NCBI RefSeq assembly: GCF_004124325.1
Contig: NZ_QBDT01000001.1
Coordinates: 558,001 to 622,000 of the forward strand
DNA length: 64,000 nucleotides
From: Streptomyces sp. L2
GTDB taxonomy: Bacteria; Actinomycetota; Actinomycetes; Streptomycetales; Streptomycetaceae
Direction of reading: 5' to 3'
A program made the translations under genes and the position numbers. The stretch's first letter is position 1, and each line of letters starts with the position of its first letter. A model generated the notes under the pieces. That model searched no databases, was not told where the DNA came from, and was given only the letters and a program-made list of their open reading frames with translations. Shown here in pieces: positions 16,857 through 47,445 of this stretch.

Positions 16857-17086
16857 GCCCAAGGTCCCCCAACTCCACTGACGGCGACGAGGCTGCTCCA
16901 TCGGCGGACGGACCGGGAGGCCCGTTCCCGGGGGCAACCTTGTCGAAGGGGCATCAAGATGCGTTGCCGTGCGCTAAGTTCACAACGATTCGTCGCCTGG
17001 ATCGAGGATCGTGCTGTCCATCGATGCCCGGCGGGCACAGCCCCTCGGTCCACTCGGGCCGGACATCACAGTTCAAGGAAGTGTGC

Positions 17087-19183: not shown

Positions 19184-19198
19184 GTGAACTCAGTCAAT
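19184..19198. promoter_or_regulatory. Island operator, site 1 (upstream of HTH-methylase 1)
   Basis: GTGAAC-TCA-GTCAAT lies about 95 nt before the methylase start. It differs by one arm base from the reversed site at 47446-47460 (GTGAAC-GTC-GTCAAC), which precedes the paralogous methylase. Confidence 0.6.
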
Positions 19199-19293
19199 GA
19201 GCGTAGTAGCCTCCCATGCCACACCGGCCACACGCCACACGGCCGCTGGGACGCCGACCCCAGCCCAGCCGCCCGCACCTCGGAGACTGTTCG

Positions 19294-21303
19294 ATGAGCA
19301 CCCCGGACGCCGTACCCGTCAGCCTGGCCGAGATCGCCCGGATCGCCGGCGTCGGACGCGCCGCCGTGAGCAACTGGCGCCGGCGCCACGACTCCTTCCC
19401 CAACCGGATCGGCGGCACCGACGTCAGTCCGCAGTTCTCCCTGACCGAGATCGAACAGTGGCTGCGCGACCACGGGAAGCTGACGGACATCGGCGGCAAG
19501 GAACTCCTCTGGCCACGCTTCGAACTGCTCGCAAGCCGGAACGAGTCGGGTCTTGCCGTCGCCGAGGCCGCCCGCCGTATGCGGACCGCCAGGGCGCGGA
19601 TCAGCCACCCCGAACTCTCCCCGCAGGCCCGCGCGCTGGTGGCCGAGGCGGGCAGGCTGGGGCGGGCGGAGGGGCCGCGCGACACCTTCGAGTTCCTGCT
19701 GCAACGGTGGCTGGAGACCCATGTCCGGCAGCTCAGCACCACGCCACCGCCCCTCGCCACGCTGATGGCCCGGATCGCCCTCGCCGTCCGCCTCGGACCA
19801 GGAGGTGACGGCCTGACCGTGCTGGATCCCGCGTGCGGCACCGGCCACCTGCTGGCAGCCGCCGCGCGGGAGTACGGCGGTCCGGGCCTCGAACTGCTGG
19901 GCTGCGAGCGGGATCCGGCGCCGGCCGCGCTGGCGTCCGCCCGGCTCGGCTTCGTCGCGGACGACCGCCCCGCCCGGGTGCGGATCGCCACCACCGACTC
20001 CCTGCGGGACGATCCGTTCAGCGGAACCAGGGCCGGCATCGCGCTGTGCAACCCGCCGTTCAACGAACGGGACTGGGGGTACGAGGAACTCGCCGCCGAC
20101 CGGCGGTGGAGCCATGGCCTGCCCCCGCGGACGGAGCCCGAACTGGCCTGGGTGCAGCACCTCCTGTCCCACCTGGAGCCCGGCGGTGCCGCCGTGGTCG
20201 TCCTGCCGCCGGCGGTCGCGTCCCGCAGGGCGGGCCGGCGGGTCCGTGGCTCGCTGCTGCGCACCGGAGCGCTGCGGGCGGTGGTGGCCCTGCCTCCGGG
20301 CAGTGCCCAACCCCACAGCGTGTCCCTGCAGTTGTGGGTGCTGCGCGCGGCGGCGGACGGCTCCGCCACCCCTCCCCCGGCCCAGGACGTGCTCCTGGTG
20401 GACGCCACGGGCTTCGCCCGGCCGGGAACGCGCGAGCCGAGCCCCGACTGGGACGCTCTCGGCACCTTCGTCCTCACCGCGCTGACGGTCCTCGACCAGC
20501 CCGGTCAGGAGCCGCCGGACAGCGCCGTACGGGTTCCCCTGCTCGACCTCCTGGACGACGAGGTGGACGTCACCCCGGGGCGCTACACCGCGTCGGCGTC
20601 CGAACCGTCGTCGAAGGAACTGGCCCAGAAGTGGGGCGTGTTCGGGTCACTGCTGACCGACCTGGCCGACCATGCACGGCATCTGTCCGCGCTCGGCACC
20701 GCGACCAGCACCGCGACCAGCACCGCGACCAGCACCCAGCAGACCACGACGACAGTGGGAGACCTGGTCAAGGCCGGCGCGCTGACGCTGCGCACAGGTC
20801 AGCAGCCCCCCGACGACAACGCGCCCGTCGGCGGGACCGCCGTACCCCTCCTCACCGTCGCCGACCTGCTGCTCGACGGCACGCCCAGCGGTCCGCCGGT
20901 CGAAGGCGACGGTCATGCCGTCGCCGAGGAGGGCGACGTGGTGGTCGCCGGAGTGAGCCGGGCGTTCCGGGCGTGGGTCCATGAAGGGCCGCCGGTGGCC
21001 CTGGGCCCCCAGCTCTACGCCTTGCGGGCGGACCCCGGGAAGCTGGACGCCCACTTCCTCGCCGGATGTCTGCGCGCACCGGCCAACGGACGCCAGGCCG
21101 GCACGCACGCCTCCAGTTCCTCGCGGGTCGACATCCGGCGTCTCCAGGTGCTCCAGCTGCCGTTGGAGCAGCAGGTGGCGTACGCAGAGACGTTCCGCCG
21201 CCTCGGCGCTTTCGAGACGCTGCTCACCGAGGCCGGCGGCTTGGGCAGGGAACTGGCGGGCGACTTCAACGACCGGCTCGCGGCAGGCGGGCTCGGCATC
21301 TGA
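19294..21303 (+). CDS. HTH-N6-adenine methylase-specificity fusion protein (island border 1)
   Basis: A 669-residue protein with three parts. Residues 7-35 are a DNA-binding HTH (SLAEIARIAGVGRAAVSNWRRR). The middle is a HsdM-like N6-adenine methylase: AdoMet motif LDPACGTG (177-184) and catalytic NPPF (253-256). The C-terminal third resembles a type I HsdS half: VAEEGDVVVAG, GPQLYALR, LQLPLEQQVAYAE. It contains a short ATST repeat (three 12-bp units, around 20700). The ATG at 19294 has GGAG upstream. It lies 131 nt before the kinase-helicase gene and could supply self-marking; the HTH plus a nearby inverted repeat suggests it also controls transcription. A paralogue lies at the far island edge. 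Confidence 0.88.
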   Translation: MSTPDAVPVSLAEIARIAGVGRAAVSNWRRRHDSFPNRIGGTDVSPQFSLTEIEQWLRDHGKLTDIGGKELLWPRFELLASRNESGLAVAEAARRMRTARARISHPELSPQARALVAEAGRLGRAEGPRDTFEFLLQRWLETHVRQLSTTPPPLATLMARIALAVRLGPGGDGLTVLDPACGTGHLLAAAAREYGGPGLELLGCERDPAPAALASARLGFVADDRPARVRIATTDSLRDDPFSGTRAGIALCNPPFNERDWGYEELAADRRWSHGLPPRTEPELAWVQHLLSHLEPGGAAVVVLPPAVASRRAGRRVRGSLLRTGALRAVVALPPGSAQPHSVSLQLWVLRAAADGSATPPPAQDVLLVDATGFARPGTREPSPDWDALGTFVLTALTVLDQPGQEPPDSAVRVPLLDLLDDEVDVTPGRYTASASEPSSKELAQKWGVFGSLLTDLADHARHLSALGTATSTATSTATSTQQTTTTVGDLVKAGALTLRTGQQPPDDNAPVGGTAVPLLTVADLLLDGTPSGPPVEGDGHAVAEEGDVVVAGVSRAFRAWVHEGPPVALGPQLYALRADPGKLDAHFLAGCLRAPANGRQAGTHASSSSRVDIRRLQVLQLPLEQQVAYAETFRRLGAFETLLTEAGGLGRELAGDFNDRLAAGGLGI

Positions 21304-21328
21304 CGCACCTACCGACAGAACCCACCCT

Positions 21329-21343
21329 GTTGACAACGTCAAC
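21329..21343. promoter_or_regulatory. Island operator, site 2 (upstream of kinase-helicase)
   Basis: GTTGAC-AAC-GTCAAC, perfect 6-bp arms, 92 nt before the kinase-helicase start. It contains TTGACA (21330-21335), a possible -35 box, so binding could block RNA polymerase. Confidence 0.7.
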
Positions 21344-21372
21344 ACACATGCACCATCGTCGTCAACGACCAA

Positions 21373-21399
21373 AGGTGTACTCTCCTGCGGGATACACCT
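21373..21399. promoter_or_regulatory. Inverted repeat in the kinase-helicase leader
   Basis: AGGTGTA (21373-21379) and TACACCT (21393-21399) are perfect 7-bp arms with 13 nt between, and an inner TCC-TGCG-GGA can pair as well. It lies 36 nt before the start codon, where it could be a second operator or an RNA hairpin. Confidence 0.5.
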
Positions 21400-21434
21400 A
21401 TCGTGCACAGGGCGGGCGAAATCGGGGAGGGGCC

Positions 21435-24400
21435 GTGAGCCGGGAGACGGTCGCGGGACGGTTCCGGATCACGGGGATCGTGGGGCGCGGGAACATGGGC
21501 GAGGTGCACCGCGCCGAGGACCTCCATGCCGCGCCGGACTCCCCGCACCGCGAGGTGGCGGTCAAGACGGTGCTGCGCGGCCGGACCGGGATCTCGGTCG
21601 ACACCTCGGGGTCCGGCAAGGAGGTCGACCGCTTCCGCCGCGAGGTGCGGATCATGCGGATGCTCTCCCAGGGGCACCCGAACCTCACCCTCCTCCTCGA
21701 CGGCGGCGTGGACGAGGCGCCGGACGGCGGCGCCGGTCTGCCCTATCTGGCGATGGAGCTGCTGGACGGCCATCCGCTCGCGGACCTCGTCGACGAGGAG
21801 CCGCAGCTCCCGGTCTCCTGGGCCGCCGCCATCGGGGCGCAGCTCGCCTCCGGACTCGCCGCCGCGCACACCGCGGGGGTCGTGCACCGCGATCTGAAGC
21901 CGGCGAATGTGATGCTCACCGGCGACGGCACGGCGAAGATCCTCGACTTCGGCATGGGCACGATCGTCGACGATCCCGACCAGACGCGGCTGACCAGCAC
22001 GGGCGTCAGCGTGGGCACGGCCCGCTACATGGCGCCGGAGCAGTTCCGCGCCGAGCGGGTCTCCGCCCCGGCCGACCTGTACGCGCTCGGCTGCATCCTG
22101 TACGAGATGCTGATCGGCCGGCCGCCGTTCTCCGCCCGGACCCCGTTCGAGCTGGCCGGGCAGCACCAGCACGAGCGTCCGCCCCGGCTGACCCTCGTCC
22201 GTCCGGACCTGCCGCCCGAACTGGTCCGGCTGGTGGACCGGCTGCTGGAGAAGGACGCCGAACTTCGGCCGGAGAACGCGGAGTTGGTACGGGAGGCGCT
22301 GGTCCCGCTCGCGCTCGCCCCGGACGGCACGGCCGCCCTGCTCGCCCCGCACTGGCAGGTGATGGACCCGGTGGCGCGGCTGCGCGCCCTGCTCCCGGAG
22401 CCCGCCCCCGCGGCCCCGGCGCCCGCACCGCGCCGGGAGCCGCGGCTGCCCGAGGCGATGGACGTCTTCGGCATCCACGCCGACCTGATCGGCGAGTACG
22501 CGAGCTTCACGCAGAGCGCGACGGTCATCCGGGACGCCCGGATCGCCGGCTTCGTCGAGGACGACCTGGCGGCGAAGTCGCAGTGGCCCGACCCGTGGCT
22601 GTCGCTGAACCCGTTCTTCGCCGACGGCGGCCAGGTCACCGACCTCGTGCGGGACGGCGTGCTGCACCCGAGGTGCGCGGAGATCTTCCAGGCCGGCAAG
22701 CGGGAGACCTCCCCGCGCCCGGACGGCCGCCCGCTCACCTTCCACCTGCACCAGCGGCAGGCGATCGAGGCCGCGCAGGCGGGCGACTCCTACGTGCTCA
22801 CCACCGGCACCGGTTCCGGCAAGTCGCTGTCGTACATCGTGCCGATCGTGGACCGGGTGCTGAAGGAGCGCGAGGCGGCCGGCCCGGACGCGGGCGGCCG
22901 GGTGCGCGCGATCGTCGTGTACCCGATGAACGCGCTGGCCAACTCGCAGCTCGGCGAGCTGGAGAAGTACCTGCGGCACGGTTTCGGGAAGGGCCGCGAG
23001 CCGGTCACGTTCGCCCGCTACACCGGCCAGGAGACCAGCGAGGAGCGGCGCGAGCTGCGCCGGAACCCGCCGGACATCCTGCTCACCAACTACGTGATGC
23101 TGGAGCTGATGCTGACCCGGCCGGACGACCGGTCCAGCCTGATCCGCATGGCGGAGGGGCTGCGGTTCCTCGTCTTCGACGAGCTGCACACCTACCGGGG
23201 CCGGCAGGGCGCGGACGTGGCGTTTCTGATCCGCCGGGTCCGGGAGGCCTGCCGGGCGTCGGCGGACCTGCAGTGCGTCGGCACGTCGGCGACCATGTCC
23301 ACGGAAGGGTCCTGGGAGGACCAGCGGCGCGAGGTGGCCAAGGTCGCCGGCCGGCTGTTCGGTACGACGGTGCTGCCGAAGCGGGTGATCGGCGAGACCC
23401 TGGTCCGGGCGACCGACGAGGTGCCCGAGTCGGTGCCGGAGGAGCGGCTGCGGGTGCCGGCGGCGCCCCGCTCGTACGAGGCGCTGACGAAGGACCCACT
23501 GGCCCGCTGGGTGGAGTCCCGGTTCGGTCTGGAGCGTGAGGCGGGCACGGGGCGGCTGCGCCGGCGCGCCCCGGAGACGGTCGAGGTGGCGGCGGCCGAG
23601 CTGGCCGATGCCTCCGGGGTGGCCGAGGAGAGCGTGCGGGAGGCGATCCGGACGACTCTGGAGGCGGGCGCGCAGGCCAAGCACCCGCTGACCGAGCGGC
23701 CCCTGTTCGCGTTCCGGCTGCACCAGTTCCTGTCCAAGGGCGACACCGTCTACACGACTCTTCAGGACCCGCTCACCCGGCCGCTCACCCGCACCTACCA
23801 GCTGGAGCAGCCGGACAGCGACGGCAAGCCGCTGTTCCCGCTGGCGTTCTGCCGAGAGTGCGGGCAGGAGTACCTGACGGTGTGGCGCACCGAGAAGAAC
23901 GGCGCGTTCCGGTACGAGCCGCGCCGCGACACCTCGGCGTCCGGGGGCCGCGAGGGCGAGGGCTATCTGTACCTGGGCATGCCCGGCCAGGACTACGAGT
24001 GGCCGGCCGATCCGCAGAAGGCCGTGGACGACCGGCGGCTGCCGGAGTCGTGGCTGGAGCCGGACACCCAGGGCGTGATGGCCGTCCGCAAGTCGTACCG
24101 GCCCCGCGTGCCCAAGCGGGTCGTGGTGGACGCGTACGGCGACGAGTCGGGCGGGGGTCCGGTGGCCGCGTACGGCGGTGGGTCGGGCGAGGGCCTGGTG
24201 CGCGCGTACGGCGGTGAGTCCGGCGAGGGCCTGGTGCGCGCGTACGGCGGTGAGTCCGGCGAGGGCCTGGTGCGCGCGTACGGCGGTGAGTCCGGCGAGG
24301 GCCTGGTGCGCGCGTACGGCGGTGAGTCCGGCGAGGGCCTGGTGGCCGCGTTCGTGCCCGCGCCGTTCCTGTTCTGCGTGCACTGCCAGGTCTCCTACGA

Positions 24401-27400
24401 GCAGACGCGCGGCCGGGACTTCGCCAAGCTGGCCACGCTGGACCAGGAGGGCCGCTCCTCGGCGACGTCGCTGATCTCGGCGTCGATCGTGAAGTCGCTG
24501 CGGGCGGTGCCCGAGGAGAGCCTGGGCAAGGAGGCGCGCAAGCTCCTCACGTTCGTCGACAACCGGCAGGACGCCTCCCTCCAGGCCGGGCACTTCAACG
24601 ACTTCGCTCAGGTGACGCAGTTGCGCGGCGCCCTGTACCAGGCGGCGGTGCGGGCCGGTGCGGAGGGCCTGCGCCACGACGACCTCGCCGAGGCCGTCAC
24701 CGAGGTGATGGGGCTCGCGCCGCGCGCGTACGCGTCGGGCACGGATCTGCCGCCGTCGCTGGAGCGGCGGGCCGCGAAGGCGTTCCGGGACGTGGTCGGG
24801 TACCGCCTGTACCGGGACCTGGAGCGCGGCTGGCGCATCACCATGCCGAACCTGGAGCAGACGGGGCTGCTGCGGATCGACTACGAGGACCTGGACTGGA
24901 TCGCCGCGCACGGCGAACGGTGGGCGGAGACGCACGCGGTGCTGCGCGACGCCGACCCGGCGCTGCGCGAGGAGGTCGCGCGTACGCTGCTGGACCACCT
25001 GCGGCGGGGTCTCGCCATCGACGTGCAGTACTTCCGGGACGACTTCGACACGTTGCAGCGGGCGAGCGAGGAGCGGCTGGCCGGTCCGTGGGTGCTGGGC
25101 GAGAGCGACCGGCCGGCGGTGGGCACCGCCTACCCGTACGGTTCGCGGCCGGGCATGGAGCGTTCGGCGCTGTTCCTGTCGGCGCGGGGCAAGTTCGGCA
25201 AGTACCTGCGGCGGAACATGCCCGAGCTGCGCGCGCCGGACGCGTCGCTGGAGGACGTGCAGAAGGTCATCGAGGATCTGCTGAGGGTGCTGCGCGACGC
25301 CGAGCTGGTGCGGGAGGTGGAGGCGGCCCCCGAGCGGTCCGGCCCGGCGTTCCGCCGGCGGCCGGCGGAGAAGCGCACCGGGTTCCGGGTGTCGGCGGCG
25401 TGCCTGGTCTGGCGGGCCGGGGACGGGGTGCGGGGCGCGGTCGACCCGCTGGCCCGCACCTACAGCAGCGGCGAGGGCCCGCGCGTCAACTCGTTCTTCC
25501 GCGACCTGTACCGCTCGGCGGCGGCCGAGCTGGCCGGCCTGTACGCGCGGGAGCACACCGCGCAGGTCACCCCGGAGGACCGGCTGGAGCGCGAGCGGCG
25601 GTTCCGTGCCGCCGAACTGCCGCTGCTGTACTGCTCGCCGACGATGGAGCTGGGCGTGGACATCTCCTCGCTCAACGCGGTGATGATGCGCAACGTGCCG
25701 CCGACCCCGGCGAACTACGCGCAGCGCTCGGGCCGGGCGGGCCGCTCCGGGCAGCCCGCGCTGGTGACGACGTACTGCGCGACGGGCAACAGCCACGACC
25801 AGTACTACTTCCGCCGCTCGCAGGACATGGTGGCGGGGCAGGTGGCCCCGCCGCGCCTGGACCTCGCCAACGAGGACCTGGTCCGCTCCCATCTCCAGGG
25901 CATCTGGCTGGCGGAGACCGGCATGAAGCTGGGCACCGCGATCCCGGACGTCGTCGACGTCGCCTACGACCCGGACGGCGGCGACCGCCCGGACCCGCGG
26001 ATGGCGTTGCCGCTGCTGCCCGGCATCCGCGACCTGTCCCTGGACGAGGACGCGCGCCGGCGTGCGGTGGCCGCCGCCCGAAGCGTCCTCGCGCCGCTGC
26101 TCACGGACTTCGAGGCGACCACCTGGTGGTACGACGAGTGGATCGAGGACCGGATCGCGCGGGCCCCCGCCGAGTTTGACGCCTCCTTCGACCGGTGGCG
26201 CGATCTGTTCCGGGCGGCTGTCCTCGACCAGTACGAGCAGAACAAGCGGGTCGTCGACCACACCCTGTCCCCCGGTGAGCAGGGCCGGGCGCGCACCCGC
26301 CGCCGGGAGGCGGAGACGCAGACGAACCTGCTGCTGAACCGCTCCGTGGACAGCAAGTCGGTGATGAGCGACTTCAATCCGTACCGCTATCTGGCGTCCG
26401 AGGGGTTCCTGCCGGGCTACAGCTTCCCCCGGCTGCCGCTGGCCGCGTACATCCCGCGCTCGGGCAACCGCCGCAACGCGGACGGGGATTACCTCCAGCG
26501 GCCGCGCTTCCTCGCGATCCGCGAGTTCGGTCCCGGCGCGCTGATCTACCACGAGGGCGCCCGCTACCAGGTCACGCGGGTGCAGTTGCCGCCGGACACC
26601 TCGGGCGATCTGGCGACGGCGGAGGCCAGGCGGTGCGACGGCTGCGGCTACCACCACGAGGTCAGGGCCGGCTCCGACCTGTGCGCGATGTGCGGTGAGA
26701 CGCTGACCGGGAAGCGCACCGGCCTCCTGCACCTGCACACCGTGTACACCACGCCGCGCGAGCGGATCTCCTCCGACGAGGAGGAGCGCCGCCGCGCCGG
26801 TTTCCGCCTGGAGGTGTCGTACGCCTTCCAGGACCACGGCGTCCGCAAGGGCCGCCTCACCTCGCACGTCGCGGACGACGGCGGGGCGCCGGTCCTCGAC
26901 CTGGACTACGGCGACTCGGCGACGGTCCGCATCACGAACCTGGGCCGGGTCCGCGACAAGGAGGGCGAGCCGGACGGCTACTGGCTGGACCTGGGTGACG
27001 GCCGCTGGCTCAACGACCGGGCCGCCGCGGACGCCATCGAGGGCACCGGTATGCCGGTGGTCGACGAGGACGGCAACGAGAAGCGGCGCAAGAAGCGGGT
27101 CCTGCCCTATGTGGAGGACCGGCGCAACATCCTCGTCGTCACCCTGGACGAGCCGCAGCCCGAGCCGGTCGCCCTGTCCTTCCTGTACGCGCTGGAGCGG
27201 GGCGTCGAGGCGGCGTTCGAGCTGGAGGACTCCGAGCTGACGGCGGAGCTGCTGCCGCCGGACGAGGGTCCGCGCCGCCGCATGCTGTTCACAGAGGCGG
27301 CCGAGGGCGGGGCCGGTGTGCTGCGCCGGATCCAGCACGACAAGGACGCCCTGGCCCGCGCGGCCCGCACCGCGCTGGACATCTGCCACTTCGACCCGGA

Positions 27401-27989
27401 CACCGGCGCGGACCTGGGCGGCCCGGCGGACGGCGAGAAGTGCGCCCGCGGCTGCTACGCCTGCCTGCTGACCTACGCCAACCAGACGCACCACCGCGAG
27501 CTGAGCCGGCACGCGGCGCTGCCGCTGCTGCTGCGGCTGGCCGGCGCCCGCACCGAGCCGGAGGACCGCGGCGAGTCCCGCAGCGAGCGGTTCCGCAGGC
27601 TCGCCCCGGCGGCCGAGGGTGCCGGCACCGCCGCCGGGCAGGCGGCCCCGGAGCAGTCGCCGACCCCGGTGGAGGCGGACCTGGCCGAACTGGTCGCCCG
27701 CGGTGATCTGCTGGGCTGGCTGCGGGCGAAGGGCTACCGCCCGCCGGACGAGGTCAAGGCCTTCGTCGCCGAGGCGGCGGCCTGCCCCGACCTGGTCTTC
27801 CGCCTGGACGGGGTGAGTCTCGCCGTGTTCGTCGACCTCCCCGGCCACCCCGCCGACTCCACGCGCGACACGGAGGCCGGCTACCGCCTGGAGGAGGCCG
27901 GCTGGGACGTCCTGCGCTTCCCCGCCGACGCGGACGCGGACTGGGACACCATCGTCGAGCACAACCGCGGCTATTTCGACGCCCGTTGA
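21435..27989 (+). CDS. Kinase-helicase-DUF1998 fusion protein, DISARM-like (DrmA+DrmB functions)
   Basis: A 2,184-residue multidomain protein. Residues about 8-280 are a Hanks Ser/Thr kinase: GRGNMGEV, VAVKTV, HRDLKPANV (HRD at 151-153), DFG. A Pro/Ala linker leads to an SF2 helicase: TGTGSGKS (457-464), DELH (582-585), GTSAT, and in the second RecA domain SPTMELGVDISSLN (near 1401) and QRSGRAGR (near 1430). A loop near 900-970 has six 12-residue repeats. Cys pairs C-x2-C at 1734/1737 and 1750/1753 may bind zinc. A DUF1998/MZB-type cluster has Cys2003, Cys2007 and Cys2010. The last 110 residues (FVDLP...GWDVLRFP) resemble a Vsr-like nuclease fold without clear catalytic residues. GTG 21435 follows GGGGAGGGG. 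Helicase plus DUF1998 next to a SNF2 helicase and methylase recalls DISARM; the fused kinase is the novelty. Confidence 0.85.
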   Translation: MSRETVAGRFRITGIVGRGNMGEVHRAEDLHAAPDSPHREVAVKTVLRGRTGISVDTSGSGKEVDRFRREVRIMRMLSQGHPNLTLLLDGGVDEAPDGGAGLPYLAMELLDGHPLADLVDEEPQLPVSWAAAIGAQLASGLAAAHTAGVVHRDLKPANVMLTGDGTAKILDFGMGTIVDDPDQTRLTSTGVSVGTARYMAPEQFRAERVSAPADLYALGCILYEMLIGRPPFSARTPFELAGQHQHERPPRLTLVRPDLPPELVRLVDRLLEKDAELRPENAELVREALVPLALAPDGTAALLAPHWQVMDPVARLRALLPEPAPAAPAPAPRREPRLPEAMDVFGIHADLIGEYASFTQSATVIRDARIAGFVEDDLAAKSQWPDPWLSLNPFFADGGQVTDLVRDGVLHPRCAEIFQAGKRETSPRPDGRPLTFHLHQRQAIEAAQAGDSYVLTTGTGSGKSLSYIVPIVDRVLKEREAAGPDAGGRVRAIVVYPMNALANSQLGELEKYLRHGFGKGREPVTFARYTGQETSEERRELRRNPPDILLTNYVMLELMLTRPDDRSSLIRMAEGLRFLVFDELHTYRGRQGADVAFLIRRVREACRASADLQCVGTSATMSTEGSWEDQRREVAKVAGRLFGTTVLPKRVIGETLVRATDEVPESVPEERLRVPAAPRSYEALTKDPLARWVESRFGLEREAGTGRLRRRAPETVEVAAAELADASGVAEESVREAIRTTLEAGAQAKHPLTERPLFAFRLHQFLSKGDTVYTTLQDPLTRPLTRTYQLEQPDSDGKPLFPLAFCRECGQEYLTVWRTEKNGAFRYEPRRDTSASGGREGEGYLYLGMPGQDYEWPADPQKAVDDRRLPESWLEPDTQGVMAVRKSYRPRVPKRVVVDAYGDESGGGPVAAYGGGSGEGLVRAYGGESGEGLVRAYGGESGEGLVRAYGGESGEGLVRAYGGESGEGLVAAFVPAPFLFCVHCQVSYEQTRGRDFAKLATLDQEGRSSATSLISASIVKSLRAVPEESLGKEARKLLTFVDNRQDASLQAGHFNDFAQVTQLRGALYQAAVRAGAEGLRHDDLAEAVTEVMGLAPRAYASGTDLPPSLERRAAKAFRDVVGYRLYRDLERGWRITMPNLEQTGLLRIDYEDLDWIAAHGERWAETHAVLRDADPALREEVARTLLDHLRRGLAIDVQYFRDDFDTLQRASEERLAGPWVLGESDRPAVGTAYPYGSRPGMERSALFLSARGKFGKYLRRNMPELRAPDASLEDVQKVIEDLLRVLRDAELVREVEAAPERSGPAFRRRPAEKRTGFRVSAACLVWRAGDGVRGAVDPLARTYSSGEGPRVNSFFRDLYRSAAAELAGLYAREHTAQVTPEDRLERERRFRAAELPLLYCSPTMELGVDISSLNAVMMRNVPPTPANYAQRSGRAGRSGQPALVTTYCATGNSHDQYYFRRSQDMVAGQVAPPRLDLANEDLVRSHLQGIWLAETGMKLGTAIPDVVDVAYDPDGGDRPDPRMALPLLPGIRDLSLDEDARRRAVAAARSVLAPLLTDFEATTWWYDEWIEDRIARAPAEFDASFDRWRDLFRAAVLDQYEQNKRVVDHTLSPGEQGRARTRRREAETQTNLLLNRSVDSKSVMSDFNPYRYLASEGFLPGYSFPRLPLAAYIPRSGNRRNADGDYLQRPRFLAIREFGPGALIYHEGARYQVTRVQLPPDTSGDLATAEARRCDGCGYHHEVRAGSDLCAMCGETLTGKRTGLLHLHTVYTTPRERISSDEEERRRAGFRLEVSYAFQDHGVRKGRLTSHVADDGGAPVLDLDYGDSATVRITNLGRVRDKEGEPDGYWLDLGDGRWLNDRAAADAIEGTGMPVVDEDGNEKRRKKRVLPYVEDRRNILVVTLDEPQPEPVALSFLYALERGVEAAFELEDSELTAELLPPDEGPRRRMLFTEAAEGGAGVLRRIQHDKDALARAARTALDICHFDPDTGADLGGPADGEKCARGCYACLLTYANQTHHRELSRHAALPLLLRLAGARTEPEDRGESRSERFRRLAPAAEGAGTAAGQAAPEQSPTPVEADLAELVARGDLLGWLRAKGYRPPDEVKAFVAEAAACPDLVFRLDGVSLAVFVDLPGHPADSTRDTEAGYRLEEAGWDVLRFPADADADWDTIVEHNRGYFDAR
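24132..24347 (+). repeat. In-frame 36-bp repeat in the kinase-helicase gene
   Basis: Six units of 36 bp start at 24132, 24168, 24204, 24240, 24276 and 24312. They encode AYGGESGEGLVR-type dodecapeptides; the central units are identical. The block lies in an insertion between the two helicase lobes, just before a C-x2-C motif (CVHC). Confidence 0.95.
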
Positions 27990-28060
27990 CCACACACGTC
28001 CCCCCAGCTCTCCCAACGCCCCGCCCACCGACGACTCGACCCGAGGAACCGATACATCCC

Positions 28061-31018
28061 ATGAGCCTCACGTACACGGCCGGTTCGCTCGTCGCCGCCC
28101 GCGGCCGGGAATGGGTGGTGCTGCCCGAGAGCGCCCCCGGCATGCTGGTGCTGCGCCCGCTGGGCGGGAGCGAGGACGACATCGCGGCCGTCTTCCCCTC
28201 GTTCGAGGAGGTGCGCCCCGCCGAGTTCGCCGCGCCGAGCCCCGACGACCTGGGCGACCAGCGCGCCGCCGGTCTGCTGCGCACCGCGCTGCGCATCGGG
28301 TTCCGCTCGGGCGCGGGCCCGTTCCGCTCGCTGGCGTCGATCGCCGTGGAGCCCCGCGCCTACCAGCTGGTGCCGCTGCTGATGGCGCTGCGGCAGCGCA
28401 CCGTACGGCTGCTGATCTCCGACGACGTCGGCATCGGCAAGACGGTCGAGGCGGGTCTGATCGCCAAGGAGCTGCTCGCGCAGGGCGAGGCGACCCGGTT
28501 GGGCGTGCTGTGCTCCCCGGCGCTGGCCGAGCAGTGGCAGGGTGAGCTGCGGGAGAAGTTCGGCATCGACGCCGAACTGGTCCTGGCCTCCACGGTGTCA
28601 CGTCTGGAGCGCGATCTGGAGCTGGGCCAGTCCCTGTTCGACAGGCACCCGTTCACGATCATCTCGACGGACTTCATCAAGTCGACCCGGCACCGCGAGG
28701 ACTTCGTCAAGCACTGCCCGGACCTGGTGATCGTCGACGAGGCGCACACCTGTGTGGCCGCCGACGACCCCGCGCAGGGCGGCGCGTCCTCCGCCGGCCA
28801 GCTCCGCTACGAGCTGCTGCGCAGGGTCTCCGCCGACGCCGACCGCCATCTGCTGCTGCTCACGGCGACCCCGCACTCCGGCAAGGAGTCCGCGTTCCGC
28901 AACCTCCTCGGCCTGGTGCGGCCCGAGCTGGCCACGCTGGACCTGGAGACGCCGGCCGGGCGGGCCAGGCTCGCCGAGCACTTCGTGGCCCGCAAACGCG
29001 CCGACGTCCGCGACTATCTGACCCGGGAGGACGGCCTCGCCGACGACTCCCTGGCCGAGCGGACCGCGTTCCCCTCCGACCGCTGGACGAAGGACGAGCC
29101 GTACAAGCTGACGCCCGCCTACCGGGCGCTGCTCGACGACGCCATCGCCTACGCCCGCGACCGCGTCGAGGCGGCCGGCGAGCAGGGCCGGCGGGAGGCC
29201 AGGGTCGCCTGGTGGTCGGTGATCGCGCTGCTGCGTTCCATGGTGTCCTCCCCGGCCGCCGCCGCGCAGACCCTGAAGACGCGCTCCGAGTCCGCCGCCG
29301 CCCGCACCGCGCACGAGGCGGACCTGCTCGGCGCCCCGGTGGCCGCCGACTCGGCCGACACCGACCGGCTGGAGGGCATGGACGTCGCGCCGGGCGCCGC
29401 CGAGTCGGAGGACGCGGGCGCCCGCCTGCTCGAACTCGCCGAGCGGGCCGGTCAGTTGACCGGACCCGCGGAGGACGCGAAGCTGAAGGCGCTGACCCGG
29501 CACCTGAAGCACCTGATCGCCGAGGGCTACCACCCGATCGTCTTCTGCCGCTACATCCCGACCGCCGAGTATCTCGCCGAGCAGCTCGACGGCAAGCTCG
29601 GCAAGAAGACGAAGATCGCCGCCGTGACGGGCACGCTCTCCCCGCAGCAGCGCCTGGAGCGCATCGAGCAGCTCGCCGTGGAGGCCGCGGAGGAGGGCGA
29701 CCCGGCCGTCCGCCGCGTCCTGATCGCCACCGACTGCCTCTCGGAGGGCGTGAACCTCCAGCACCACTTCGACGCCGTCGTCCACTACGACCTCGCCTGG
29801 AACCCGACCCGCCACGACCAGCGGGAGGGCCGGGTCGACCGCTACGGGCAGAAGCGCGACCAGGTCCGTGTCATCACCATGTATGGCGAGGACAACGGTA
29901 TCGACGGCAAGGTCCTGGAGGTGCTGTTCAAGAAGCACCGGCAGATCAAGAAGGACCTGGGCATCTCCGTCTCGGTGCCCGACGAGACCGCCTCCGGCGT
30001 GACCGACGCCGTGGTGGAGTGGCTGCTGCTGCACGGCCGGCAGGGCAGCCAGGAGAGCCTGTTCGAGATGGACGGGCACCAGGAGTCCCTGGACCGGATC
30101 GAGCGGGAGTGGAGTTCGGCGGCCGAGCGGGAGAAGACGTCCCGTTCCAAGTACGCGCAGCGGGCCATCCACCCGGAGGAGGTGGCCCGCGAGGTCGCCG
30201 CCGTACGGGCCGCGCTGGGCGGCGCGGACGAGGTCTGCGGCTTCGCCCTGGAGGCGCTGCGCGACCTGGACGCCCTGGTCCGCGACCCGCACGGCGGCGG
30301 CGACTTCACCGCGCGGGTCGGCGGCACCCCGGCCGGTCTGCGGGACGCGCTGGCAGCCGTCCTCGGCAACCGGCTGGTGGAGGAGGACCGCGAGATCCCG
30401 TTCCGCGCCACCCCTGCGATCGCGCGCGGCGAGGCCGCCCTGGTCCGCACCGACCCGGCGATCGGCGCCGTCGCGTCCTACGTCCTGGACTCGGCGCTGG
30501 ACGTGAACGCGCTCGGCCCCCGCCCGGCCCGCCGCTGCGGCGTGGTCACCACGGACGCGGTCACCACCCTCACCACGCTGCTCCTGGTCCGCTACCGCTT
30601 CCACCTCACCCTGCCGTCCCGCACCGGCGAGCGGCAGCTGGTCGCGGAGGACGCCCGCCTGCTCGCCTACGAGGGCCTGCCCGCGCGCGCCCGCTGGCTC
30701 GACGACGACTCGGCTACGGCGCTCCTCGCGGCCCGCGCCACCGCCAACACCCATGAGCTGGCCGCCCGCAGGGCCATCTCCCGCGCCCTGGACGGCCTGC
30801 CGGGCCTCGCCGACCATCTCACCGAGTACGGCACCCGCCTGGCCGCCGAACTCGACGCCTCGCACCGCAGGGTCCGCAAGGCCAACGAGGAGATCGTCCG
30901 CGGCCTGAAGGTCGTCCCGCAGGAACCGGCCGACGTCCTCGGCGTGTACGTGTACGTGCCGCCGCAGCCCGTCTCCCCCGCCGCGCCCGCCTCTACCGTG
31001 TCCGGAGCCGAAGCCTGA
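28061..31018 (+). CDS. drmD: SNF2/RapA-like helicase, DrmD-like
   Basis: A 985-residue SF2 translocase. N-terminal SLVAARGREWVVLPES and LRPLGGSEDD form the small beta domain typical of RapA/DrmD proteins. ATPase motifs: DDVGIGKT (121-128, Walker A), DEAH (226-229), LLTATPHSG (III), FCRYIPTAEYL (IV), ATDCLSEGVNLQ (V) and HDQREGRVDRYGQ (VI). The order and length match the DISARM helicase DrmD more than chromatin-type SNF2 proteins. The ATG at 28061 has GAGGA 11 nt upstream. Its stop overlaps the methylase start (TGATG), and it starts 71 nt after the kinase-helicase, so the three form an operon. Family known: dsDNA translocase acting with a methylase in defence; its partners here are inferred. 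Confidence 0.87.
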   Translation: MSLTYTAGSLVAARGREWVVLPESAPGMLVLRPLGGSEDDIAAVFPSFEEVRPAEFAAPSPDDLGDQRAAGLLRTALRIGFRSGAGPFRSLASIAVEPRAYQLVPLLMALRQRTVRLLISDDVGIGKTVEAGLIAKELLAQGEATRLGVLCSPALAEQWQGELREKFGIDAELVLASTVSRLERDLELGQSLFDRHPFTIISTDFIKSTRHREDFVKHCPDLVIVDEAHTCVAADDPAQGGASSAGQLRYELLRRVSADADRHLLLLTATPHSGKESAFRNLLGLVRPELATLDLETPAGRARLAEHFVARKRADVRDYLTREDGLADDSLAERTAFPSDRWTKDEPYKLTPAYRALLDDAIAYARDRVEAAGEQGRREARVAWWSVIALLRSMVSSPAAAAQTLKTRSESAAARTAHEADLLGAPVAADSADTDRLEGMDVAPGAAESEDAGARLLELAERAGQLTGPAEDAKLKALTRHLKHLIAEGYHPIVFCRYIPTAEYLAEQLDGKLGKKTKIAAVTGTLSPQQRLERIEQLAVEAAEEGDPAVRRVLIATDCLSEGVNLQHHFDAVVHYDLAWNPTRHDQREGRVDRYGQKRDQVRVITMYGEDNGIDGKVLEVLFKKHRQIKKDLGISVSVPDETASGVTDAVVEWLLLHGRQGSQESLFEMDGHQESLDRIEREWSSAAEREKTSRSKYAQRAIHPEEVAREVAAVRAALGGADEVCGFALEALRDLDALVRDPHGGGDFTARVGGTPAGLRDALAAVLGNRLVEEDREIPFRATPAIARGEAALVRTDPAIGAVASYVLDSALDVNALGPRPARRCGVVTTDAVTTLTTLLLVRYRFHLTLPSRTGERQLVAEDARLLAYEGLPARARWLDDDSATALLAARATANTHELAARRAISRALDGLPGLADHLTEYGTRLAAELDASHRRVRKANEEIVRGLKVVPQEPADVLGVYVYVPPQPVSPAAPASTVSGAEA

Positions 31019-34000
31019 TGTCCGCCGCCACCCGCACCGCCCTGGCCTTCACCGCCGTCACCACGGTCGGCGGACTGCTCCCCGCCGACATGCTGCTGCG
31101 CGTCGCCGAGGCCCGGAACCTGCCCGGCACCAAGTCCGCCGACTACGGCCTGCCCGCCTCCGTCCCCGTGCGCGACGAGGCCGAGCGCGCCTGGGAGTAC
31201 CTCAAGCCGCTCTGGCGCGACCTGCGCGCCGCCCTGCCCGCCGACCCGGTCACGGGCGCGCCCGCCGCCGACCCGACCGGCCGGGCCGGCACCGACTGGC
31301 TCGCCCAACTGTTCCGCAAGCTGGACTTCGGCGCGCTGACGGAGGTCGGCCCGGCGGGCGTCCCGGCCGACTCCGACCCGGAGAAGCGGTTCCCCGTCTC
31401 CCACCGGCACGGCCCCGCCCTGGTCCATCTCCTGCCCTGGAACCAGGAGCTGGACAAGCGTCCGGCGGCCGGCCAGGTCCCGGCCCAGTCCATGCTCCAG
31501 GACTGCCTCAACCGTACCGAGACCCACCTGTGGGCGGCCCTCACCAACGGCCGCCGCCTGCGCCTGCTGCGCGACTCGTCGTCCTTCGCGACGGCCGCCT
31601 ACGTCGACTTCGACCTCGAAGCCATCTTCGACGGCGAGCTGTTCAGCGAGTTCGTGCTGCTGTACTGCGTCCTGCACGCGTCCCGGTTCGCCGTCCCGGA
31701 GGGTACGGCTCCTTCCGGCTGCTGGCTGGAGAAGTGGCGCGCGGAAGCGGTCACGTCGGGTGCCCGCGCCCTGGACCAGCTCCGGCTGGGCGTGCAGAAC
31801 GCCCTCACCGTGCTCGGCACCGGCTTCCTGCGCCACCCGGACAACGCCCGGCTGCGCGAGGACGTCGACCCGAAGGCCCTCCGGGACGCTTTGCTACGCC
31901 TGGTGTACCGCTTGCTGTTCGTCTTCGTCGCCGAGGACCGCGACGCCCTTCTCAACCCGGGGGCCAGTGACCCGCAACGGCAGGCGTACGAACGGTACTT
32001 CTCCTCGGCGAGGCTGCGCGAGCGCGCCCGCCGCAGGCAGGGTACGGCCCACGGCGACCAGTACGAGGCACTGCGCATCGTCTTCGAGGCGCTCGGCCAG
32101 GAGGGCGGACGCACCGAGCTGGCCCTGCCCGGCCTCGGCGGCCTGTTCTCCCCCACGAAGGCCGACGCCCCGCTCGATGGCCTGAAGCTGTCCAACGAGT
32201 CCCTGCTCGCCGCCGTACGGCACCTCGCCCAGGTACGTGATCCTGGCGCGCGGCGCTGGCGTGCGGTGGACTACCGCCACTTGGACGCGGAGGAACTCGG
32301 CTCGGTCTACGAGTCCCTGCTGGAGCTGGAGCCGAAGCACTCTGCGACGGACCGTTCTTTCGAGTTGATTGAGGTGGCAGGCAACAGCCGCAAGACGACC
32401 GGCAGTTACTACACCCCCTCCTCCCTCATCGAGTGCCTGCTCGACACGACGCTCGACCCGGTGATCGACGACGCCGTCAAGCGCGGCGAACAGCGCGCGA
32501 CCCAGGCCGGCCGTCCCGACCCGGCCGACGACATCGTGAACGAGCTGCTGTCCCTCACGGTCTGCGACCCGGCCTGTGGTTCCGGGCACTTCCTCGTCGC
32601 CTCGGCCCGCCGCATCGCCAAGCGGGTGGCGTCGGTACGGGAGCACAACCCCGAGCCGACGGTCGACGCGGTACGGCACGCCCTGCACGAGGTCGTCGCG
32701 CGCTGCATCTACGGGGTCGACCTCAACCCGATGGCCGTGGAGCTGGCCAAGGTCTCCCTGTGGCTGGAGGCCCTTGAGCCCGGCAAGCCGCTCGGCTTCC
32801 TGGACGCCCACGTGAAGCACGGCAACGGGCTCATCGGCGCGACCCCGAAGCTGCTCGCGGAGGGCGTTCCCGACGACGCCTTCAAGCCGATCGAGGGGGA
32901 TGACAAGAAGTACGCGGCCGGGCTCGTCAAGCGGAACAAGGCCCAGCGGGGCGGCCAGGACGAGCTGCTGTTCGACGCGGATGCGTTGCCGGGTAACGAC
33001 GCCTATGCCGCCGAGCTGGCCCGCATCACGGCCGCCCCGGCTGACGTTCTGGAACAGGTGCGGGCTCAGGAGACCGCGTATCGGGCTTACGTCGAGTCCA
33101 CGGCGTACGTGCAGGATCTACATGCTGCTGATGCTTGGTGCGCGGCGTTTGTGTGGCCCAAGCGGGAGGGGGCTCCGGAAGCGCCGACTGACCAGGTTTT
33201 TCGTGCGCTGCGGGGGCGTGATCAGTCGGCGGTGCCGGATGCGACGCATGAGGAGATCTTGCGGCTTCGGGATCAGTACAGCTTCTTTCACTGGCATCTG
33301 GAGTTTCCGGAGGTGTTCGCTGTCCCGGAGTCCGGGGTTGGCGTTCAGCCGGGTACCGGGTGGGCTGGGGGGTTTGCTGCGGTGGTGGGGAATCCTCCGT
33401 GGGAGCGGGTCAAGCTCCAGGAGCAGGAGTTCTTTGCTCAGCGTTCGCCTGAGATCGCCGAGGCGAAGAACGCGGCGGCTCGCAAGAAGCTCATCGCTGC
33501 ACTGCGCGACGACCCGGATGGGGCACGCTTGTTCGCCGAGTTCGGGGATGCCAAGCGTCGAGCGGAGGGTGAGAGTCATTTCCTGCGCGTGAGCAACCGG
33601 TTCCCTCTGACGGGGCGGGGCGACATCAACACGTACGCGGTCTTCGCGGAGACGGACCGCACGCTCACGGGCTCGCGCGGCCGAACGGGCGTGATCGTCC
33701 CGACGGGGATCGCTACGGATGCGACGACACAGTTCTTCTTCAAGGACCTGGTCACCAAGGGGCACTTGGCCGCGCTCTACGGTTTCGAGAACGAGGAGAA
33801 GGTCTTCCCGGGCGTCCACCACAGCGTGAACTTCGCTTTGTTCTGCATGGCGGGCTCGGGCTCGCCCGACTCCCCGATCTCCATCGCCTTCCGTGTCCGC
33901 CAGGTGACGCAGATCGCCGAGCGCGCTTACGCCCTGACCGGCCGCGACATCCAGCTCCTCAACCCGAACACCGGGACATGCCCCGTTTTCCGCGACCGCC

Positions 34001-35136
34001 GCGACGCCGAGATCACCCTCGGTATCTATCGTCGCGTCCCGGTTCTGATTGAGGAGGCCAAGGGTGCGGCAGGCAACCCGTGGAGCATGACCTTCATGCG
34101 CATGTTTGACATGTCCAACGACTCCCATCTCTTCCGCCCCGCCGCCCAAAATGGCGAATCCTTCGAGGAGCTACTGAAGACGGGCTGGGAGCTGGACGGC
34201 AATGTCTTGGTGCGCGGTGAGGAGCGCCTATTGCCGCTGAATGAGGCGAAGATGCTGCACCACTACGATCATCGCTTCTCCACGTACGAGGGTGCGACCG
34301 AGAAACAGCTCGCTGTGGGCACGCTGCCCCGGCTGACGCTCGACCAGCAGCAGGACCCTGCCACGACGTCACTGCCCCGCTATTGGGTTCCCGAACGGGA
34401 TGTCTCTACTGGTGAGTTCGATAGGAACGGCGGAGAGGTCAAGATTCCCGGCGTGCGCAGCCGTCTGTCCGCCAAGGGGTGGGACCGGGACTGGCTGATG
34501 GGGTGGCGGGACATCTGCCGGGTCAGCGACGAGCGCACGATGATCGCATTCGTGTTTCCGCGCGTTGCAGCACCTGATGGCACCCTGCTCATGCTTCCTC
34601 AGGCCGGGCCAGTCGCGGGGCTCATGGCCTGCTTGTCTTCTTTCATCCTAGATTTCGCCACACGCCAAAAGAGCGGTGGTACCCACCTCAAGTTCTTCAC
34701 GACTTCTCAACTCCCCGTCATTACACCCGGGCAGATCACCCCCCACTCCGACTTTGTCACCTCGCGCCTCCTCGAACTCACCTACACGGCCCACGACATG
34801 GCCCCCTTCGCGCGCGACCTTGGTGACACCGGCGCACCATTCCGCTGGGACGAAACCCGCCGTGCCGTGATCCGCGCCGAGTTGGATGCCCTCTTCTTCC
34901 ACCTTTACGGGATCGACCGGGACGACACCGCGTACATCCTGGACACCTTCAACGTCACCCGGGACAAGGACATCAAGGCGCACGGCGAGTACCGCACCAA
35001 GACGCTGATCCTCGCCGAGTACGACCGTATGGCCGCCGCCGGCCTGACCCTGGAGACCCCGCTCACCGAGGGCGAGTCCGGCACCTACCGCTCCACCCTC
35101 ACCCCGCCCCCCGGTCAGGGCCCCCGCCACGACTGA
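31018..35136 (+). CDS. Large N6-adenine DNA methyltransferase (Eco57I/PglX/DrmMI type)
   Basis: A 1,372-residue methylase. About 450 residues of N-terminal helical domain precede the catalytic core: [10 protein letters not shown], then AdoMet motif [11 protein letters not shown] (Asp517), [21 protein letters not shown], and catalytic NPPW (792-795). The large C-terminal part with RYWVPERDV, then [18 protein letters not shown], is the target-recognition-like region of PglX/Eco57I enzymes. There is no nuclease motif, so it is a modification enzyme and not a type IIG nuclease. Its start overlaps the SNF2 gene stop by one base. From about 33.1 to 34.7 kb codon third positions shift towards T and A, unlike the rest of the gene, suggesting recombination of the recognition part. 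In DISARM the methylase marks host DNA. Confidence 0.9.
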
Positions 35137-35165
35137 CCCGCTCCTCATTCAAGAAGGCACCGCAC

Positions 35166-35678
35166 GTGGTACGCGTTAACCAGACCAGCAACTCCCGCTC
35201 GACCGTCGTCCTGAGTTCAGGGACGGACTGGGGTACGCGTGCCGCTGTGCAGCGGCGGAGCAGTGGGGCGGAGTCCCCCATACCCCGGCGGCAGCCGGCG
35301 AAGATCAAGGTGTTGCAGCAGACGATCGGCGTGGCACGCGCGGCGATCGCAGGCAAGCGCTGGCACCAGGCGCGCTACGCGCTCAGCCGGGCTCGGGCTC
35401 TCCTCAACGCGCTCCCCGCCGACGTGGCCGTACAGGAGCGCGAGCAGCTTTCGGCGCTCCGCAAGAAGTACGCGGCGCGGAACACGCCGGCCGGGCAGAA
35501 CGCCAGGAACTCGAAGGTCGCGCCCGCCAAGGGTACGGCCAAGAAGAAGCCCGCCCCGAAGAAGGCGGCGGAGAAGCCGAAGCCCGCGCCCGCGCGCGAA
35601 CTCGGTGACCGTCTCATCAACCGAGCAGCCCTCGGCTACACGGCCGCCGATGAGACGAAGCGTCCCCGGACGCGGTGA
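35166..35678 (+). CDS. Small basic protein at the end of the DISARM-like operon
   Basis: A 170-residue protein of unknown function. The N-terminal 45 residues are Ser/Arg rich; residues about 45-105 are helical (KIKVLQQTIGVARAAIAGKRWHQARYALSRARALLNAL, possible coiled coil); then a Lys/Ala/Pro tail (AKKKPAPKKAAEKPKPAP) like the tails of histone-like proteins; then a short conserved-looking end RLINRAALGYT. GTG 35166 follows AAGAAGG. It starts 29 nt after the methylase and is probably the last gene of the operon. It could hold DNA near the helicases, but that is inference; no family recognised. Confidence 0.7.
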   Translation: MVRVNQTSNSRSTVVLSSGTDWGTRAAVQRRSSGAESPIPRRQPAKIKVLQQTIGVARAAIAGKRWHQARYALSRARALLNALPADVAVQEREQLSALRKKYAARNTPAGQNARNSKVAPAKGTAKKKPAPKKAAEKPKPAPARELGDRLINRAALGYTAADETKRPRTR

Positions 35679-39871: not shown

Positions 39872-39927
39872 GGGTAAGGTGAGCGCGTCGCAGGCCCGCT
39901 CCCCCCTCCCCTCCAGGAAGGTCGCCC

Positions 39928-43031: not shown

Positions 43032-43082
43032 GAACCCGTCAGGCTCATGAAAGTCCGTCCGGCTCATGAAAACCCGTCAGGC
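43026..43082 (+). repeat. Three 19-bp repeats starting at the mcrC stop
   Basis: Three consecutive 19-bp units (43026, 43045, 43064), each TCATGA followed by AACCCGTCAGGC or a near copy. The first contains the mcrC stop TGA (43029-43031). Confidence 0.92.
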
Positions 43083-43099
43083 AGAGAGGAAGACACCGT

Positions 43100-45253: not shown

Positions 45254-45744
45254 CCGGCCGGGACACATGGGTCAGCCTGACCGGCTGGGATGCTGTCACC
45301 GGCCGGGACGGTCTGACCGGCCGGGACGGTCTCACCTGGCCGGGACCGCCTGACCGCGCGGGACGACATGGCCGGCCCGGACCACCTGGCCGCCCGGGGC
45401 GGTCGAACCGGCCAGGACCACCTGGCCGGCCGGGACGCCTGACCGGCCCGGGACCGCCTGGCCCCTTGGGACGGGCAGACGTCGCCGGACGACATGGCCG
45501 ACCCCGACCCCCTGACCGCCCGGGACGGCCGAACCGGCCAGGACCATCCGACCGCCCGGGACGCCTGACCAGCCAGGACCACCTGGCCGGCCGGGACGCC
45601 TGACCAGCCAGGAGCGCCTGGGCTCTTGGGACGGGCAGACGTCGCCGGACGACATGGCCGGCCCGGACCACCTGGCCGCCCGGGGCGGTCGAACCGGCCG
45701 GAGCCGCCTGACCGGTCGGGGCCGCCCAGTTGGTCGTGGGGCTC
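45254..45744. repeat. About 490 bp of degenerate GACCGGCCGGGACGG-type repeats
   Basis: Between the helicase stop and the end of methylase 2 there is no credible gene, only imperfect units of about 20 bp of the form TGACCGGCCGGGACGGTC; the first begins at the helicase stop codon. Longer copies are nested: GGACGACATGGCCGGCCCGG occurs at 45361 and again near 45650, and CTTGGGACGGGCAGACGTCG near 45466 and 45626. Long frames are open on both strands here only because stop codons are rare in the unit. Confidence 0.88.
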
Positions 45745-47400: not shown

Positions 47401-47445
47401 GGGCCCAGCGTACACGCGGCGCTATTCACATTCAGGGGTCGATAC

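Follow-up and report, generated by a model that had tools for sequence, protein, structure and literature searches.

What kind of defence system places a Ser/Thr kinase and a helicase on one polypeptide, and what would the kinase do there? The question is raised by an operon of Streptomyces sp. L2 that lies in the window, the 64,000-nucleotide stretch of DNA analysed here (558–622 kb on a 7.78-Mb contig). Its five co-directional genes, spaced by 131, 74, −1 and 29 bases in that order, encode an N6-methylase with a helix–turn–helix (HTH) domain (hthM), a kinase–helicase fusion, an SNF2 helicase, a large N6-methylase and a small basic protein. The original prediction, made from the sequence of the window alone, took this operon for a DISARM-like system under Pgl-like phosphorylation control. 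We find that it fits another family, ARMADA Type I, and that kinases recur in and beside related operons.

A kinase and a helicase in one frame

The fusion is an ArmC-like helicase of 2,184 residues on the forward strand, as are all genes of the operon (21435..27989). A Pfam search found Pkinase, DEAD, Helicase_C and MZB domains within this single frame, bearing out the predicted union of a kinase, a superfamily 2 helicase and a DUF1998/MZB module. The Ser/Thr kinase domain spans residues 12–287 (21468..22295; Pfam Pkinase, 139 bits), with K44, HRD at 151–153, DFG at 171–173 and APE at 200–202. The RecA1/DEAD domain follows at residues 439–622 (22749..23300; 91 bits), with Walker A at 457–464 and DELH at 582–585, and then RecA2/Helicase_C at 1368–1439 (25536..25751; 46 bits) and the DUF1998-type MZB zinc module at 1918–2011 (27186..27467; 37 bits, and 42.9 bits in another scan). 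The HRD, DFG and helicase Walker A motifs all stand where they had been predicted. The C terminus (27615..27983) probably adopts a Vsr-like PD-(D/E)xK nuclease fold, as also proposed, and the window copy keeps the D-D-H site.

The GTG at 21435 is only the probable start, because the frame stays open further upstream. Kinase-bearing homologues are 2,087–2,149 residues long, in agreement with this start once a tandem repeat of about 76 residues in the window protein (24124..24351) is discounted. The repeat is in frame, with a period of 36 bp (AYGGESGEGLVR units; 6.3 copies, 92% matches), and has CxxC pairs at 806 and 981 on either side; the homologues that bear a kinase are shorter by roughly this much. 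Residues 616–776 were modelled with a predicted local distance difference test score (pLDDT) of 83, and comparison with the PDB for the BrxA-like helical domain that follows RecA1 in ARMADA Type I gave no usable match. The best PDB match of the helicase part was 9tu7, a 2,108-residue DEAD/DEAH helicase, and YprA/MrfA (6znp) scored 86 bits.

The catalytic motifs of the kinase (ATP lysine, HRDLKP, DFG and APEQF) are invariant in an alignment of 51 fused sequences, and a second alignment of 36 rows agrees. Pgl-like phosphorylation control, as originally predicted, is a possible function. The kinase itself is PknB-like: a PknB-type NCBIfam model scored 235 bits, versus 43 bits for the PglW model (cut-off 990), and we reject kinship with PglW. 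Nor is the domain a recent copy of another kinase in the window genome, where a search with it returned itself at 635 bits and 28 other matches at no more than 170 bits, the next-best score.

Assignment to ARMADA Type I

ARMADA is described as related to DISARM yet distinct from it (PMC12458937, Bell et al. 2025, a preprint of 15 September 2025). The same source gives the general order of Type I as YprA helicase, BrxHII/RapA-like helicase and PglX-like methylase, and places the helicase and DUF1998 in a single chain with a Vsr nuclease at its C terminus (PMC12458937). The gene order in the window matches. Behind the fusion lie an ArmA-like SNF2/RapA (BrxHII-like) helicase of 984 residues from its ATG (28064..31018; Walker A GIGKT, DEAH) and an ArmB-like PglX/type IIG-like N6-adenine methylase of 1,372 residues (31018..35136; DPACGSGHF, NPPW), their genes overlapping by one base. 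These two neighbours, the small basic protein downstream and the HTH-methylase 131 bases upstream are as originally described.

We scanned six operon-side proteins against PADLOC, Pfam and NCBIfam profiles, and also scanned ten flanking proteins of the window. Without its kinase, the fusion matched the PADLOC models DruE3 at 338 bits and six further DruE models at 212–280 bits, with DrmA at 47.5 and 30.9 bits; DrmB was not among the 23 families listed for this part. The SNF2 protein matched PADLOC PDLC02853 (labelled DpdE) over its full length at 1642 bits, PADLOC DrmD at 276 bits and two NCBIfam DrmD models at 301 and 126 bits (cut-offs 610 and 950); its closest PDB relatives are RapA. For the 1,372-residue methylase, PADLOC DrmMI scored 235 bits and Pfam Eco57I 63.8 bits. 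In Druantia, DruE is accompanied by DruH or other Dru proteins. Among the PADLOC matches listed for the six operon-side proteins we found neither such a partner nor DrmC nor GajB (ArmD), the families listed for them included no PglZ, and Pfam gave no PLD family; PADLOC and Pfam also revealed no phosphatase in this set. Nothing resembling a 7-deazaguanine DNA-modification (Dpd) gene appeared among the six operon-side and ten flanking proteins, the only window proteins scanned.

The scores of both partners to DrmD and DrmMI, together with the DpdE label, would suit a true class 1 DISARM (or Dpd) variant. We reject class 1 DISARM, and regard any such variant as very improbable: DrmA falls far below DruE3, no DrmB or DrmC is listed, both NCBIfam DrmD models stay under their cut-offs, and the MZB module sits inside the helicase frame, whereas DISARM keeps DrmA and DrmB apart. 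The predicted DISARM architecture is thus not upheld, although the predicted lack of DrmC is; the SNF2 protein is DrmD-like, as proposed, but scores under the DrmD cut-offs. PDLC02853 itself probably gives ARMADA Type I genes a Dpd name, because the SNF2 partner of an ARMADA Type I operon matches it over its full length at such a score. On a helicase tree, five Type II-like rows split from 25 others (SH-aLRT, the Shimodaira–Hasegawa-like approximate likelihood-ratio test, 100) and the window helicase lies outside the Type II-like group; the type labels on this tree were assigned in this analysis, without named reference sequences. By sequence comparison, then, the locus fits an ARMADA Type I operon with a kinase-bearing helicase.

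Recurrence of the fusion

The original prediction had proposed a search for the same gene order in other actinomycetes, and the fusion recurs in dozens of genomes. A Pfam kinase domain is present in 119 of the best 120 of 7,982 homologues, and some database entries already name the kinase and helicase domains together (for example, P0078). A first scan, in which genomes were searched with the SNF2 protein, gave 72 loci; with the window, 69 have a scorable helicase, the unscored loci (L013, L059, L067 and L070) being cut by contig ends or having a displaced helicase. Kinase and helicase share a frame in 51 of the 69, including loci of Streptomyces, Wenjunlia, Actinacidiphila, Marinactinospora, Micromonospora and Pseudonocardia, and the helicase is kinase-less in 18, including loci of Mycobacterium, Mycolicibacter, Lolliginicoccus, Mobilicoccus, Desulfosarcina and other phyla.

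We also searched 391 genomes of the order with the helicase (E-value 1e-100 or better), which returned 72 ARMADA-I loci in 67 genomes. By frame, 52 loci have at least 2,113 residues and 18 have 1,754–1,846, with one fragment and one split locus. A kinase-domain search of the 67 genomes placed a match ahead of the helicase at the split locus as well as at those 52, which makes 53 loci in 52 genomes; a single additional match, of lower score, lay elsewhere. The counts of the first scan and the order sample are not independent because some genomes occur in both. A frame artefact or misassembly is rejected: kinase and helicase share a frame across many separate assemblies. The fusion is real. Five genomes (G129, G199, G420, G022 and G029) have two ARMADA Type I loci each, either fused and kinase-less or both fused. 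A search for carriage by phages found no match at E 1e-40 in 50,697 records.

Kinases beside kinase-less helicases

Within the same genus, nine loci with a kinase-less helicase have a kinase frame of 323–399 residues that adjoins the helicase divergently. The nine helicases form one clade (SH-aLRT 100) that is sister to the fused clade (99), on a quick tree of fused and separate loci with some long branches among its kinase-less rows. The kinase part of L120 is present, its label 'none' on the tree reflecting a split frame. We searched the 391 genomes for the separate kinase at E 1e-75 and scored the five best candidates per genome. The seven matches of 413–697 bits all neighbour an ARMADA helicase that lacks a kinase, and the best score after them is 260 bits, which ties this kinase family to kinase-less ARMADA loci. 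On the kinase tree the fused and separate groups are each solid (100/99), and a kinase from the window's own genome joins the separate group (99/96).

The window genome also holds a second ARMADA, in Type II order, at 0.916–0.936 Mb (G000:C1 915.9–935.7 kb; L161, L076). It comprises an HTH-methylase, a 388-residue kinase, an SNF2 helicase, a large methylase, a 2,255-residue DruE-like helicase and a GajB-like UvrD helicase; the kinase overlaps the HTH-methylase by four bases and the SNF2 frame overlaps the kinase. A search of 147 genomes with this helicase gave matches in 19, and we surveyed the upstream DNA of the 18 besides the window's own and of one earlier locus, plus additional stretches. 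The open reading frame (ORF) directly before armA is a same-strand kinase in all 11 Type II-like loci in which that place is visible (L161, L165, L168, L169, L170, L172, L180, L183, L184, L185 and L186). The stretch ends within two of these kinases; the other nine all have HRD and DFG. In L173 and L175 armA lies at the stretch edge, and it is not reached in L171, L174, L176, L177, L178, L179, L181 and L182. As Type II-like loci are homologous, these are not eleven independent events. Kinases are nevertheless found repeatedly with both ARMADA types.

The word 'kinase' has no occurrence in the main text of PMC12458937, the supplement not being covered, and in the literature searched, including the sections consulted of PMC12839542, PMC13192584, PMC12904381 and PMC11341870, we found no description of a kinase in ARMADA or of a kinase–YprA fusion. 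The fusion, together with kinases in many related operons of the order, suggests that ARMADA defence has a layer of control by phosphorylation that had gone unrecognised.

What the kinase may do

The explanation that we favour, with moderate confidence, is an ARMADA Type I defence operon in which a YprA-family helicase–nuclease carries a Hanks-type Ser/Thr kinase in cis as a phosphorylation switch. The ArmB methylase, perhaps aided by the HTH-methylase, would mark or read host DNA, and the YprA helicase and its SNF2 partner ArmA would load on invading DNA that is unmodified or contains single-stranded stretches, and then translocate. The kinase would phosphorylate the helicase's own linker or its partners and thereby time the activity of the complex. 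Given an intact site, the Vsr-like domain at the C terminus could nick DNA; in copies without one, the helicase might block replication without cutting. Because the kinase is fused to the helicase, the helicase is its most likely first substrate. By this account, phosphorylation of the system's own parts would either activate or restrain it, and the window operon would provide defence. A switch on the helicase fits better than a free toxin because the kinase in cis keeps its catalytic residues and recurs beside the same helicase when unfused.

Work on relatives gives some context for these steps. In an Escherichia coli ARMADA Type II system, mutation of the Walker motifs of ArmA or ArmC, of Walker A in ArmD or of the methylase NPPW abolishes protection (PMC12458937). 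DruE, a near relative of the helicase, engages 3'-tailed DNA and cleaves long DNA (PMC13192584).

Several observations weigh against a kinase switch. The E. coli ARMADA that was tested consists of four genes, none of them a kinase (PMC12458937), so a kinase is not essential to ARMADA. The fetched flanks, some of them short, hold no kinase at 12 of the 19 kinase-less order-sample loci (fragment included) and at all 18 kinase-less loci of the first scan. Two further Type II-like helicase loci, L162 and L164, have no strong armA ahead of the helicase (in L164 a 73-bit match on the other strand) and no kinase within the fetched stretch. The kinase tree leaves a single shared recruitment of fused and separate kinases undecided, their joint grouping not being rejected (approximately unbiased (AU) test, p = 0.086). 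The nuclease histidine is absent from 40 of 70 distinct fused loci, which makes cutting doubtful for many fused relatives; it is present in all nine separate-kinase relatives. We found no published experiment on the window operon or its kinase.

Erosion of the nuclease site in so many fused relatives would make another effector useful, and the kinase itself might be that effector: the helicase would sense the invader and the kinase would phosphorylate host or phage proteins and halt growth, as proposed for Stk2 and KKP. The best PADLOC kinase profiles for the fused kinase, PD-T4-6 and mad6, represent defence kinases, although they are general Hanks-kinase profiles, and the kinase–kinase–phosphatase module KKP defends through kinase toxicity (PMC11341870). 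We consider an effector kinase unlikely, given that E. coli cells with ARMADA Type II survive infection without abortive infection (PMC12458937), that the operon-side proteins showed no phosphatase, and that separate kinase frames of the size found here leave little room for another domain. The kinase could instead act without catalytic signalling: it might shield the system from phage kinases or other anti-defence factors, serve as a decoy for them, or provide no more than a dimerisation platform. PMC12904381 cites phage kinases by which DNA-targeting proteins are inhibited, but a non-catalytic role does not require the catalytic residues that are invariant in the 51 aligned sequences, and we judge it improbable.

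The HTH-methylase and the small basic protein

The first gene of the operon, hthM (19291..21303), encodes an N-terminal HTH, an HsdM-like N6-adenine methylase (DPACGTGHL, NPPF) and a weak HsdS-like C terminus. It scored 99.6 bits to Pfam N6_Mtase and, in PADLOC, 306 to MTase_I, 72.7 to mad2, 23 to mad1 (HTH part) and 16.9 to Specificity_I. Homologues at E 1e-100 or better occur in 101 of the 391 order-sample genomes. We reject hthM as a constant part of the system: besides the window, only 6 of 50 fused first-scan loci have a match (in an upstream flank of only about 3.5 kb) and close homologues lie mostly elsewhere. Among its 16 matches of at least 900 bits, 15 are off any contig on which an ARMADA-I helicase was matched; the remaining one is that of the window. 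A homologue lies within about 20 kb of separate-kinase ARMADA in six of seven such genomes.

Nine high-scoring hthM loci (L144–L149 and L152–L154) were picked from the match list. A kinase is the direct neighbour in four (L144, L145, L146 and L148), is one ORF away in L153 and is lacking in the other four. At the five loci with a kinase, an SNF2-type helicase ORF comes after the kinases and scores 147–160 bits to the window SNF2 protein; the one copy scanned, from L144, scored 1416 bits to DrmD. At L144, L145, L146 and L148, hthM is divergent from two consecutive Ser/Thr kinases and the helicase, possibly a further kinase-armed defence island. Loci chosen for known neighbours, near ARMADA (L141–L143) or near a kinase (L150, L151), were excluded from this sample. 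In L142, near separate-kinase ARMADA Type I, a kinase lies between pPIWI-RE genes (PprDinG, PprRE and PprPDDEXK) and hthM. L077 likewise has a PprDinG gene near a kinase, hthM and separate-kinase ARMADA Type I, and L141 and L166 show similar-sized ORFs in the same order, judged by size alone. A more distant hthM paralogue adjoins a Ser/Thr kinase in L150 (7082–11930) and L151 (4680–9419; window genome, 4.74 Mb), and such paralogue–kinase match pairs recur in several other Streptomyces genomes.

On this partial sampling of sequences, the kinase and the HTH-methylase look like a travelling pair. They might make up a module of their own, with a role in regulation or restriction, that only adjoins ARMADA or was captured by it, as the many close hthM matches away from ARMADA-I helicases, several beside kinases in other islands, would allow. 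Against this stand the 52 of 72 loci at which one frame holds both kinase and helicase, and the place of the basic gene behind armB, and we hold a separate module to be rather improbable.

The small basic protein (35166..35678; 170 residues, isoelectric point 11.8) has a conserved DLGDRFINRAALGY-like tail behind a middle rich in alanine, lysine and proline. It occurs at 21 distinct fused loci, including the window, and at none of the kinase-less ARMADA loci examined. Matches at E 1e-6 or better are present in 27 of the 391 genomes, some of which have no ARMADA-I helicase match, so that the protein is not strictly bound to the operon.

Two other parts of the window deserve mention. A 723-residue kinase gene (16940–19111) stops 179 bases short of hthM; it is unsupported as part of the system, since it matches the fused kinase at 85 bits (at 89 when the genome was searched) and stands distant from it on the kinase tree. 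At 39883–47421, an AAA_5 ATPase, a UvrD-type helicase and a second N6-methylase, which shares 35% identity with hthM across about 500 residues, are further defence-like genes nearby.

Implications

We tentatively suggest, with somewhat less conviction than for the operon itself, that actinomycetes devote a layer of their DNA-targeting immunity to Ser/Thr phosphorylation. Recruitment of a Hanks kinase, in many cases alongside an HTH-N6-methylase, may have happened repeatedly, tying the firing of a helicase or nuclease to a phosphorylation decision. The candidate settings are the ARMADA Type I fusion, the divergent neighbour in the sister clade, the gene before armA, the DrmD islands and the pPIWI-RE islands. 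If actinomycete ARMADA needs its kinase, helicase-based DNA immunity would be under general control by phosphorylation, and this in the bacteria that first yielded Pgl. As a single protein, the fusion opens the role of the kinase to test by one catalytic mutation. Two database labels would also be corrected if this holds: the DpdE name that PADLOC gives to the SNF2 partner, and the PADLOC DruE models that catch ARMADA helicases.

Comparison with known systems

MADS combines an HTH-bearing N6-methylase with a Ser/Thr kinase. The mad1 and mad2 profiles match hthM and mad6 matches the fused kinase, but the methylase scores are weak (see above). BREX type 2, or Pgl, resembles the window in being an actinomycete operon that joins a kinase, a PglX-like methylase and a helicase; here, in contrast, the kinase is PknB-like and fused to the helicase, and PglZ is missing from the families listed for the six proteins. 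The helicase is nearest to the DruE3 profile of Druantia, yet it has SNF2 and methylase partners and a C terminus that is probably Vsr-like rather than PLD. With class 1 DISARM the window shares an SNF2 helicase and a large N6-methylase akin to DrmD and DrmMI, but it has no separate DrmA and DrmB, no DrmC PLD nuclease was found, and its helicase groups with DruE profiles.

The two ARMADA types come closest. Type II has homologous helicase, SNF2 and methylase proteins, and a kinase gene occurs in the Type II-like operons of Streptomyces as well, immediately ahead of armA wherever that place can be seen; Type II differs in its order (ArmA-ArmB-ArmC-ArmD), its separate kinase and its GajB-like UvrD helicase. 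Type I is matched in the order of its helicases and methylase, in the joining of helicase and MZB in one chain, in that no GajB-like fourth gene was found and, probably, in a C-terminal Vsr-type nuclease; unlike it, the window has an N-terminal Ser/Thr kinase on the helicase, an HTH-methylase upstream and a small basic protein downstream.

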